A stretch of 63,267 bases of DNA from Verrucomicrobiota bacterium (lineage in GTDB: Bacteria; Verrucomicrobiota; Verrucomicrobiia; Chthoniobacterales; UBA10450), in the NCBI GenBank assembly GCA_003218475.1, contig QHNR01000044.1, positions 1 through 63,267 of the forward strand, in the 5' to 3' direction. The position numbers were made by a program, and so were the translations under genes. Position 1 is the stretch's first letter, and each line of letters begins with the position of its first letter. The notes under the pieces are model-generated. The model saw nothing but the letters and a program-made list of their open reading frames with translations, was not told the origin of the DNA and made no database searches. Shown piece by piece: positions 18,750 to 56,787 of this stretch.

Positions 18750-19045
18750 TTCACAAACTCATCTTGGATCGCCGAATCTGCGATAGCGAATTCGTTCGTA
18801 AAAGATTCACTGATTTCGCGGTTTTGACTGGCTTCACGGATGGCTGCGATTGTAGATATGATAATCACCGCTGCCGACAACATAGCGACGCGCCGGACGA
18901 GCGACGTGACTCCATTCGTCCTCGGGGCAGCCGCGCGCCAGAGCGCCACCACACGCGTATCAAACCCAAGCGGCATCGTAGCCGCGGTCTCTTCGCGTGC
19001 CTGGGCCGCGGATCTCAGCAACCGATCGATTTTTTTGTCTTTCAT
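18746..19045 (-). CDS. small membrane protein, probable anti-sigma factor
   Basis: 99 aa. A charged cytoplasmic N-terminal part of about 50 residues (KKIDRLLRSAAQAREETAATMPLGFDTRV) is followed by one transmembrane helix (RRVAMLSAAVIIISTIAAI) and a short periplasmic tail. No zinc-type anti-sigma HxxxCxxC is seen. Its position, overlapping both the ECF sigma gene (19042-19045) and the LTxxQ gene (18746-18749) by four bases, is the main reason to call it an anti-sigma factor. That call is inference from layout and topology. Confidence 0.7.
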   Translation of the reverse strand: MKDKKIDRLLRSAAQAREETAATMPLGFDTRVVALWRAAAPRTNGVTSLVRRVAMLSAAVIIISTIAAIREASQNREISESFTNEFAIADSAIQDEFVK

Positions 19046-19623
19046 TGTTTCTCTTTTGCCGAAATTTTCGTCAGCTGTTGTTTCATTTTCTGCCTGGCTC
19101 GGAACGCGCGCACCTTAATCAGCGCTGCGCTCCAGCCGGTGATCTTACGGATTTCCTCAACCGAACGTCCCTGCAAGTATAGCAAATCAATCGCCAGCCG
19201 CTCGACCGGCTTCAGCGCAGCTAAAAGATGCTCTACCAGCTGACGCGATGCGAACCGCTGATCCGGCGCCAGCTCTTCGTCCGAGGTCGCCAGATTCTCG
19301 ATCGTCGCTTGCTCCTCAACACTCAAATCGGCATGACGAAGTTCAGGGCGCACTTTCTCCGACTCGATTTGGTTGAGGCAGGTGTTCACCGCGATGCGCG
19401 AGACCCAGTGCTCGAGCGGCACCTTGCCCGAATATTGCGCTAATTTTTGGAAAACTTTGATAAAAATCATTTGGCAAAGGTCCTCCTCTGCCGTTCGGCG
19501 CGGACGACGTGCCCGGACCACTTTTGCGACCAGCGGATAAAGCTGACGCACCAGCGCCCGAGCTGCTTCATCATCATGCTGAAGCGCAGCCTGAACCAGC
19601 GCGCCTGCGTCAGAATCATCCAT
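19042..19623 (-). CDS. ECF-type RNA polymerase sigma factor
   Basis: 193 aa. Region 2 lies around residues 25-95 (ALVRQLYPLVAKVV, then EEDLCQMIFIKVFQKLAQY, the core and -10 binding part) and region 4 around 125-185 (LKPVERLAIDLLYLQGRSVEEIRKITGWSAALIKVRAFRARQKM), a clear helix-turn-helix. It would direct RNA polymerase to a small stress regulon. The two downstream genes overlap it stepwise. A bipartite site TTGTAACC-N16-GGTCA lies 32 bases upstream of its start and recurs before the divergent Spy-like gene, so it probably regulates itself. Confidence 0.93.
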   Translation of the reverse strand: MDDSDAGALVQAALQHDDEAARALVRQLYPLVAKVVRARRPRRTAEEDLCQMIFIKVFQKLAQYSGKVPLEHWVSRIAVNTCLNQIESEKVRPELRHADLSVEEQATIENLATSDEELAPDQRFASRQLVEHLLAALKPVERLAIDLLYLQGRSVEEIRKITGWSAALIKVRAFRARQKMKQQLTKISAKEKQ

Positions 19624-19720: not shown

Positions 19721-19753
19721 TGTCATTTCGAGCGAAGTCGAGAGATCTCTTGA
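19721..19753. repeat. left inverted repeat of the GIY-YIG element
   Basis: TGTCATTTCGAGCGAAGT, then CGAGAGATCTCTTG. It pairs with 20076-20110 (28 of about 33 positions by eye). The stop codon of the enclosed gene begins three bases after it. Confidence 0.85.
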
Positions 19754-19755
19754 AA

Positions 19756-20061
19756 TTATCTGTCCTGCAGCACGTCTGCACCCAAGTCGCGCCAACTGGG
19801 GTTCAACCTGTCAATCAGTGCGACTTTCTTGGCGCGGGACCGTTTTTTCAATTGGCTTTCTCGCGCGATTGCGTCGCGAACGTCTCGATACCACTCGTAA
19901 TATATGAGCTTTGTGCAGCGGTAGTCCGCGGCAAATCCACTACCGCTTCCTTCGCGGTGTTCCCAAATTCGCCGTGAGAGTCTGTTCGTCACTCCGATGT
20001 ACAGGACAAAATGGTTGCGGTTTGTCACAATATAGGTCCAAAAATTGTAATCGCGTCCCAT
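19756..20061 (-). CDS. GIY-YIG nuclease family protein
   Basis: 101 aa, the usual size of the stand-alone COG2827-type GIY-YIG proteins. The catalytic motif reads TYIV, then LYIGVTNRLSRRIWEHREG with the conserved Arg and His, and the later acidic residue in AIARESQLKK. GIY-YIG domains cut DNA in repair, restriction and homing enzymes. The gene is tightly bounded by an inverted repeat (19721-19753 and 20076-20110), and the same repeat occurs without a gene at 31170-31262 and 56687-56787. I infer a minimal mobile unit. It sits between the divergent promoters of the sigma operon and a Spy-like gene. Confidence 0.9.
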   Translation of the reverse strand: MGRDYNFWTYIVTNRNHFVLYIGVTNRLSRRIWEHREGSGSGFAADYRCTKLIYYEWYRDVRDAIARESQLKKRSRAKKVALIDRLNPSWRDLGADVLQDR

Positions 20062-20075
20062 GTCCGAGATTTTAA

Positions 20076-20110
20076 AGCGAGAGATTCCTCAACTTCGCTC
20101 GGAATGACAT
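20076..20110. repeat. right inverted repeat of the GIY-YIG element
   Basis: AGCGAGAGATTCCTC then AACTTCGCTCGGAATGACA, the inverse of 19721-19753. It ends 28 bases before the TTGTAACC box of the plus-strand promoter. Confidence 0.85.
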
Positions 20111-20166: not shown

Positions 20167-20214
20167 TCATCTTTGAAAGCGCGAAGAGCGCACAGCAAAC
20201 AACAAACATTAATT

Positions 20215-20595
20215 ATGAAACGAAATCTATTAACAGTTGTGGCCGCCGGTGCGATCGCACTTGGCGGCTTTGTGCTTGTGCAAGCACAACCTGGTTCCGG
20301 CGGCCATGGCGGCTGGCATGGCCACGCATTTGGTCTTCAGCGAATTACTGAGAAGCTGAACCTGACGTCGGATCAAGAGACTAAGGTTCAGCCAATCGTG
20401 GACGCGGCCAAACCGCAGATCGCCGCCATCCATCAGGAGGCGATGCAGAAAATGAAAACCGTGATGGACAGCACGCTATCGCAGATCCGTCCGCTACTAA
20501 ATCCGGATCAGCAGAAGAAGCTCGACGACATTCAGAAGGCGCATCAGGACATGATGAACGCCCATAAAGAGCTTCACAACGCGATGCAGCAATAA
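20215..20595 (+). CDS. secreted Spy/LTxxQ-like protein
   Basis: 126 aa from ATG at 20215, which starts a clean signal peptide (MKRNLLTVVAAGAIALGGFV, cleavage near AQA). The mature part has a Gly/His-rich start (GGHGGWHGHAFG), then a helical domain with LNLTSDQETKVQPIVD and LLNPDQQKKLDDI, the paired LTxxQ-type motifs. It is likely a periplasmic chaperone or metal-binding stress protein. It is transcribed divergently from the ECF operon and carries the same candidate promoter, so it is probably a member of that sigma factor's regulon. Upstream in-frame ATG at 20173 is less likely because it splits the signal peptide from the start. Confidence 0.87.
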   Translation: MKRNLLTVVAAGAIALGGFVLVQAQPGSGGHGGWHGHAFGLQRITEKLNLTSDQETKVQPIVDAAKPQIAAIHQEAMQKMKTVMDSTLSQIRPLLNPDQQKKLDDIQKAHQDMMNAHKELHNAMQQ

Positions 20596-31169: not shown

Positions 31170-31262
31170 ATGTCGTTCCGAGCGAAGTCGAGGAATCCCG
31201 TGATGAAACCTAACGTACCATCGCGGGATTCTTCGACTTCGCTGCGCTCCGCTCAGAATGAC
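31170..31262. repeat. gene-less copy of the GIY-YIG element repeat, upstream of mazG
   Basis: TGTCGTTCCGAGCGAAGTCG, a GAATCCCG...CGGGATTC inner stem and the inverse TCGACTTCGC...AGAATGACT. The repeat starts at the base after the DUF2270 stop, and its last bases supply the mazG ATG. Confidence 0.85.
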
Positions 31263-32064
31263 TGCGTTTGAAAAGCTCTGCGAGATCGTCGCAAAATTGC
31301 GCGCGCCCGGCGGGTGTCCATGGGACCGGGAGCAAACCCATGAATCGCTGTTGCCTGCTTTAATTGAAGAAACATACGAAGTAACGGAGGCTGCGCGCGC
31401 GAAGGACGACGCACATTTTCGCGAGGAACTGGGCGATCTGCTCCTGCTGGTGGTGATGCACGCGAAGATCGCCAGCGAAGCTGGGCACTTCAACATCGAC
31501 GAAATTATCCACGACATTTCGGATAAACTAATCCGGCGGCATCCGCATGTGTTTGGAACCAGCGACGCGCGCGATTCCGGCGCTGTGCTCAAACAGTGGG
31601 AAGCGATTAAGCGCGAAGAGAAAAAGACCGATTCGCATTATCTCGCCAGTTTGCCTAAAGCGCTGCCAGCGCTTATGCGCGCGCAAAAAGCCCAATCAAA
31701 AGCCGCACGCGTGAATTTCGACTGGACTGAGGTGCGCGATGTGGTCGCGAAAGTGGAAGAAGAGCTGCGCGAGATGAAAGAGGCGATTGTGGCGCTAGAT
31801 CGCGCGAGAATCGAGGACGAGGTTGGCGACATGCTCTTCGCAGTCGTCAATCTGGCGCGGAAATGCAAAATTGACGCGGAAAGCGCGCTCCAGGGCGGAA
31901 CGAACAAATTTGTGACACGATTCAATCAACTGGAAGACGAAGTGAAAGCGCGCGGGAAGGAACTGGGCGATCTCGGTCTTTCGGAAATGGATGAGATTTG
32001 GAACCATATTAAGAATGACGAAGCCCGAATGACGAATGCCGAATCAATGACGAAGCCCGGATGA
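31258..32064 (+). CDS. mazG: nucleoside triphosphate pyrophosphohydrolase MazG
   Basis: 268 aa with two MazG domains: the first has LIEETYEV and FREELGDLLLLVVMHA, the second EEELREMKEAI and IEDEVGDMLFAVVNLAR, each giving the EExxE...ExxD metal site. KLRAPGGCPWDREQTH at the N-terminus is typical. It hydrolyses NTPs to NMPs, cleaning the nucleotide pool. The ATG at 31258 is formed by the final AGAATGACT of the upstream repeat, and the last 16 or so codons (NDEARMTNAESMTKPG) are read from the downstream AATGACGAAG repeat, so both ends have been shaped by repeats. Confidence 0.93.
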   Translation: MTAFEKLCEIVAKLRAPGGCPWDREQTHESLLPALIEETYEVTEAARAKDDAHFREELGDLLLLVVMHAKIASEAGHFNIDEIIHDISDKLIRRHPHVFGTSDARDSGAVLKQWEAIKREEKKTDSHYLASLPKALPALMRAQKAQSKAARVNFDWTEVRDVVAKVEEELREMKEAIVALDRARIEDEVGDMLFAVVNLARKCKIDAESALQGGTNKFVTRFNQLEDEVKARGKELGDLGLSEMDEIWNHIKNDEARMTNAESMTKPG

Positions 32065-56686: not shown

Positions 56687-56787
56687 TGTCATTCCAAGCG
56701 CAGTCGAGGAACCTCTCGACTTTATCCGAGCCAGCAGCGATTCACAGATAACAGCAAGAGATTTCTCCAATTCGGTCGAAATGACAG
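56687..56787. repeat. gene-less copy of the GIY-YIG element repeat
   Basis: TTGTCATTCCAAGCGCAGTC at the left, and the inverse AATTCGGTCGAAATGACAG at the right, about 100 bases. Same ends as the GIY-YIG element at 19721-20110 but with no gene between. Confidence 0.8.

Follow-up and report, generated by a model that had tools for sequence, protein, structure and literature searches.

A GIY-YIG nuclease gene between two copies of a TGTC-tagged hairpin repeat in Verrucomicrobiota: a probable REPtron-like unit

The present analysis indicates that Verrucomicrobiota encode a small GIY-YIG nuclease between two copies of its own cognate TGTC/CGTC-tagged hairpin REP, and that gene and repeats together probably constitute a REPtron-like unit (we put the probability of this reading at roughly 0.7). 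The window, that is the whole stretch of DNA that was analysed (63,267 nucleotides), contains one gene-bearing unit and two REP dimers without the gene:

19721..19750, plus strand: TGTC-tagged REP on the 3' side of the gene, stem arm TTC, tag outward
19756..20061, minus strand: GIY-YIG nuclease gene (101 aa, stop codon included), PF01541 match, model pLDDT 89
20080..20109, minus strand: TGTC-tagged REP on the 5' side of the gene, stem arm TCC, tag outward
31171..31262, unstranded: REP dimer without the gene, 92 bp, tags outward
56687..56786, unstranded: REP dimer without the gene, 100 bp, tags outward

The two REPs of the gene-bearing unit are 30 bases long each, inverted and identical at 26 of 30 bases, and they lie 5 bases (19721-19750) and 18 bases (20080-20109) from the gene. 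The initial annotation had placed a 101-codon GIY-YIG gene between inverted repeats, and this is borne out by a PF01541 match of 57.7 bits, the sole Pfam match of the ORF at E<=0.001. Its inverted pair also stands, with a corrected geometry: 5 and 18 bases in place of 3 and 15, a length of 30 bases in place of about 33, and an end at 20109 in place of 20110. The gene-less copies of the same ends which it reported are real. No match was found in NCBIfam for the protein or in Rfam at the element. A 17-base core of the repeat, with at most 2 mismatches, matches the window 5 times, where shuffling gives 0.07 matches on average. The genome-wide count that had been proposed gave, with at most 1 mismatch, 113 matches in the draft genome (3.16 Mb in 195 contigs, 83% complete) against 1 for the reversed pattern, a density of about 36 matches per Mb.

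The link between gene and repeat holds in Verrucomicrobiota and in Proteobacteria, with weaker traces at one Bacteroidota and one cyanobacterial locus. In Verrucomicrobiota, a family profile made from 20 relatives was searched in 31 genomes of the genus and 240 genomes of the phylum. Only the first copies with a locus were entered from these searches, and the loci L053-L061, which largely duplicate those of the genus search, were counted once. The 62 loci studied comprise 37 of the family (above 90 bits) and 25 other GIY-YIG loci (below 75 bits). Matching ends at the genes of this subfamily had been set beforehand as the point on which the idea could fail. A repeat detector, which tolerates 2 mismatches and of whose results the L112 pair, the upstream match of L088 and the downstream match of L091 are doubtful by eye, found outward repeats on both sides of the gene at 34 of the 37 family loci. 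Other small Verrucomicrobiota GIY-YIG genes, unlike the window family, were without repeats on both sides at 24 of 25 loci, the exception (L099) being a broken family copy, and at six of the 25 there was a one-sided match. A sequence-blind test for an inverted repeat spanning the gene was significant (p<=0.01) at 30 of 36 family loci versus 3 of 24 others; three of these 30 (L080, L082 and L102) score through a AACCACGG-type repeat, and the TGTC repeat was also detected there. Scores of at least 13 in this test were reached by 26 of 36 family loci, 2 of 24 others and 1 of 110 control positions. Every copy of clades A and C has its upstream tag beginning 41-50 bases away from the gene match.

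At the level of whole genomes, at least 5 repeats were found in all 8 phylum genomes that have the gene versus 5 of the 232 that do not (Fisher p 5e-12, a value that ignores relatedness, the 8 gene-bearing genomes representing 5 families). The source genome has 14 PF01541 matches, among which the window subfamily adjoins repeats; its other GIY-YIG types (L014-L016, L019-L022) have none within about 1.5 kb, and the nearest repeat pair to UvrC (L017) is about 1.3 kb away. On the other hand, clade-A repeats are present in all 31 genomes of the genus whereas the clade-A gene is present in 7, and one phylum genome (G208) has 86 repeats with the gene absent. The repeats thus persist, or are served, without the nuclease gene.

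It was found that the repeats have a regular architecture. Among 114 repeats in 60 stretches around repeat matches, close pairs have their tags outward in 45 cases, inward in 3 and in the same direction in 3, and the length of 44 scored dimers is 72-150 bp. Among the 73 of the 114 repeats with a locatable second stem arm, 67 have this arm reverse-complementary to the first (5000 shuffles: mean 27%, maximum 44%), so that by this test the stem arms covary. Entire dimers recur with their spacers, 74 pairs aligning at 75% or more, with clusters of 20 and 8. All 46 short dimers scored for their arms, two of them from the window, pair two different stem arms, where random dealing would give about 11 same-arm dimers. 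An obligate heterodimer rule was nevertheless rejected as not general, since same-arm dimers make up 10 of 23 in the complete genome G165 (by eye, among the matches listed) and 7 of 34 gene-bearing units. The window repeats fold with a stem of 4-5 bp only, shorter and imperfect, and stems of 8-9 bp were found in the seven proteobacterial units tested. In G165 no bias of dimer polarity with respect to replication was seen, with too few dimers, GC skew sampled coarsely at 20 points and dimer types assigned by eye among those of the 117 matches that were listed.

The nuclease clades own distinct repeat types. On the gene tree of 37 rows the repeat label, drawn from the upstream repeat in 32 rows, changes 11 times, the minimum being 10 and the shuffled mean 19.8. 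Clade A, to which the window copy belongs, keeps one repeat type through 11 copies that occupy about 7 sites, in so far as this can be judged from short contigs. A main site common to six genomes exists in clade B and another in clade D. As many gene copies are orthologous, with one site shared by up to six genomes, the match between clade and repeat is partly joint inheritance. Within the genus, repeat density is weakly linked to the cognate gene (one-sided p of 0.04 in clade A and 0.03 in clade C, the broken clade-C copy of G011 being scored as gene-bearing), and the cross tests gave p 0.49 and 0.07.

The nuclease is a conserved protein. Y10, Y21, R31, H35, E68 and N87 are invariant in 20 relatives, and by analogy with I-TevI we take them to be the catalytic positions. 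The gene copies are under purifying selection, with a median dN/dS of 0.08 (range 0.03-0.28) over 67 pairs, which include some genes twice and are thus not all distinct, and in which dS is often saturated. The source genome has six family matches, three of them with an internal stop, and two of these three lie at contig ends and are apparently one copy. By sequence the nearest solved structures are of the UPF0213 type (1zg2, 1ywl; E 8e-9), and a Foldseek search with the predicted model (pLDDT 89) also gave 1zg2 as best match (E 6e-4) followed by Slx1, whose structure is described in its title as processing branched DNA. The UPF0213-type GIY-YIG proteins have the same fold and constitute a more distant subfamily. 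A GIY-YIG homing endonuclease, which would be inserted at a single conserved site and in most cases within an intron or intein, was considered and rejected: flank comparison places the 11 clade-A copies at about 7 sites, and the window copy lies between two genes, with no single conserved site.

All three elements of the window vary in presence at orthologous sites, and the variation among relatives that the initial annotation had proposed to look for was therefore found. The gene-bearing element occurs at the same site in G014 with 83% identity and is missing in 14 other relatives of the same genus that could be placed on both sides, where unrelated spacer DNA is present, partly as a run of N in G018. 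The 31171 dimer is also present in G006 and is missing in 9 other relatives that could be placed on both sides. G012 has the 56687 dimer too, and G002 and G013 are without it; in G003, where the stretch is different, it was not seen. Such site-level variation was seen in three genera. In Azospirillum lipoferum 4B the gene, together with two REP pairs, is located between sufB and sufC, and A. oryzae, A. ramasamyi and strain B510 are without the unit, their aligned parts being about 95% identical to those of A. lipoferum 4B. In Sphingobium the unit was present in four strains examined, the version of TomTYG73 being one base shorter with the gene unannotated; TomTYG64 (L174) and TomTYG74 (L175) have at its site a single palindrome joining the outer REP halves, and TomTYG72 has neither unit nor palindrome. 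This palindrome could have arisen by slippage or as the scar of an excision. Neither a target-site duplication nor a clean empty site could be read, the element-less sites holding different spacer DNA. In the light of these results the initial description as a minimal mobile unit is not fully sustained: the gene-less dimers are dispersed, but the gene copies are often orthologous and under purifying selection, with no target-site duplication readable.

The association extends to other bacterial groups. Relatives in a plasmid collection come from Sinorhizobium, Rhizobium, Shinella, Novosphingobium, Sphingobium, Azospirillum, Neisseria, Aeromonas, Spirosoma, Planktothrix and others, and 12 of 16 loci taken from 32 records have a significant flanking inverted repeat, that of Spirosoma being weak. 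No significant flanking repeat was found at the remaining four, namely Planktothrix (p 0.04), Photobacterium and two Rhizobium plasmid loci. Plasmid control positions scored at least 13 in 2 of 64 cases, both on CGTC repeats beside the Photobacterium locus. Among 32 IMG/VR loci, 30 were testable and 24 of these have a flanking inverted repeat and 6 no significant one, a count that includes near-duplicates (L154-L157 and L159; L164-L165; L166-L168). No relative was found in a phage collection at E<=1e-6. The repeat sequence is lineage-specific and the plan is mostly common: an unpaired CGTC, TGTC or CCTC tag, a stem, a short loop and a tail, the stem starting in general with AT, with GC in Novosphingobium and with AC in Sphingobium. 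The relative in Neisseria gonorrhoeae shares 44% identity with the window protein and is flanked on each side by CGTC repeats.

The unit has much in common with the REPtron of RAYT/TnpA-REP (PMC8266576, PMC6006769, PMC3733652). Both have a small nuclease gene bordered by multicopy palindromes, one repeat type per enzyme clade, dispersed gene-less dimers and an enzyme under purifying selection with mostly vertical inheritance. As in a REPtron, the GIY-YIG gene is bordered by REPs of its own type that are repeated in the genome, and the enzyme is conserved and largely vertical, as is seen from dN/dS and the six-genome site groups of clades B and D. The REPtron enzyme is an HUH Y1 transposase (PF01797) and its tag is GTAG, whereas here a GIY-YIG protein without tyrosine chemistry is joined to a TGTC or CGTC tag. 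The parallel that the initial annotation drew, with a GIY-YIG nuclease replacing the transposase, is supported by linkage and site variation, and the REP/RAYT partnership is thereby offered a non-HUH counterpart. REPtrons 'do not appear to transpose as a unit' (PMC6006769) and RAYT genes are said to be close to housekeeping genes (PMC8266576). By analogy with the RAYT REPtron, the short dimers would disperse while the gene rarely moves.

CGTC REPs were defined by Di Nocera et al. 2013 (PMC3733652), who concluded that they are apparently without a dedicated transposase; Neisseria dRS3 and two rickettsial palindrome families belong to them. The plan given there is an unpaired CGTC, TGTC or CCTC tag, an AT-starting stem of 8-9 bp and a loop of 4-5 bases, and the carriers named include A. 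lipoferum, S. meliloti, N. aromaticivorans and the Neisseriae (PMC3733652). At one locus each of A. lipoferum, S. meliloti, N. aromaticivorans and Neisseria, we found the gene between CGTC-type repeats. The repeats studied here share with that superfamily the unpaired tag, the AT-starting stem, dimers and heterodimers; they differ in that the window stem has 4-5 bp and not 8-9 bp, and in that a GIY-YIG gene is paired with them, no nuclease being named in the available part of PMC3733652. The nuclease gene is a good candidate for the enzyme that CGTC REPs were thought to be without. As CGTC-type repeats are tied to a GIY-YIG nuclease in several groups, it becomes possible to test what spreads CGTC REPs, starting from a named gene and from matched pairs of enzyme and repeat.

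A literature search by title and abstract found nothing tying GIY-YIG to REP, RAYT, dRS3, palindromes or Neisseria ssDNA nucleases, and nothing on the window repeat itself that links it to GIY-YIG. Ssn proteins, from the Veyrier group (about 2025), are reportedly GIY-YIG site-specific ssDNA nucleases whose cognate sequence is repeated through Neisseria genomes, and the family is said to influence transformation in Neisseria. The window protein resembles them in its GIY-YIG fold with the conserved residues given above, presumably catalytic, and in that its N. gonorrhoeae relative lies between CGTC repeats. Since Ssn reportedly has cognate repeats, the nuclease-repeat pairing itself is probably not new. 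The view of the initial annotation that this had not been described as a mobile system must therefore be narrowed, on account of Ssn as well as of the TGTC/CGTC REPs already described (Di Nocera 2013).

We infer that the nuclease mobilises the repeats. The enzyme would recognise its own repeat when single-stranded and folded and would cut one strand in the hairpin or close to it, after which the repeat could be copied or re-inserted by host replication or repair. Gene-less dimers would thereby spread in trans, and the gene-bearing unit would move rarely and be kept by selection, as described for RAYTs. That the GIY-YIG protein supplies the dispersal enzyme so far missing for CGTC REPs, nicking single-stranded hairpin REPs whose copying as gene-less dimers is completed by host replication or repair, is put forward tentatively, the odds being somewhat against it. 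If true, it would represent a second, independently evolved mobility of bacterial ssDNA repeats with a nuclease replacing the transposase, and nuclease/CGTC mobility would exist beside a RAYT/GTAG system in the same cell.

It is possible, though on balance unlikely, that the nuclease is a host-serving ssDNA enzyme which uses REPs as its sites, for example in controlling uptake or recombination of incoming DNA, and that the REPs spread otherwise, for example by template switching. Purifying selection and vertical retention would suit a host function, as would the effect that Ssn reportedly has on transformation in Neisseria; this explanation, however, does not account for a gene between two repeat copies at about 7 clade-A sites or for the recurrence of whole dimers including their spacers. 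It is far less probable that a Y1 (RAYT) or other transposase moves the repeats and that the nuclease gene was merely captured between them. The source genome does have 11 Y1_Tnp matches, Y1 being the sole transposase type checked, but no TGTC repeat lies within about 500 bases of any of these 11 loci, three of them have their own GTAG-containing inverted repeats, and the nuclease-repeat pairing recurs in distant groups with different repeat sequences. This genome seems to have two REP systems working in parallel. Chance proximity of abundant intergenic repeats to small genes can be set aside almost completely, as the density of core matches that could favour it is contradicted by the control positions (1 of 110 and 2 of 64 scoring at least 13), the other GIY-YIG loci (both-side repeats at 1 of 25) and the fixed distance of the upstream tag in clades A and C.

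With the REPtron-like reading retained, some observations on the surroundings of the units should be added. The window element is flanked by divergent ORFs, a sigma-factor-like one (19042-19623, minus strand) and a Spy/CnrX-like one (20173-20595, plus strand), both named by eye, and is enclosed by inverted GGTTACAA / TTGTAACC motifs which are also present in relatives. A dispersed AACCACGGATTACACGGAT-type repeat lies just outside some gene-bearing units (flanks of L080, L102, L082 and L054). At the 19.7 kb site, several element-less relatives (L025, L026, L029 and others) have a hairpin with a GTAG-like tag (GTAGAGGTGCTTGTGCCAAGCACC), so that the other REP type may occupy this position. At the site of the 31171 dimer, relatives without it (L181-L188) have AT-rich short repeats of GTTGATAGTTGAGAG or TTTGATGTTTGA types. 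At 31258-31275 the final bases of this dimer apparently provide the ATG of the following ORF, MazG-like by eye, and the same is the case in G006. On plasmid p1 of Planktothrix agardhii (L063), the neighbours of the GIY-YIG gene are an MmeI-type restriction gene on one side and, on the other, drmA of a DISARM defence system.
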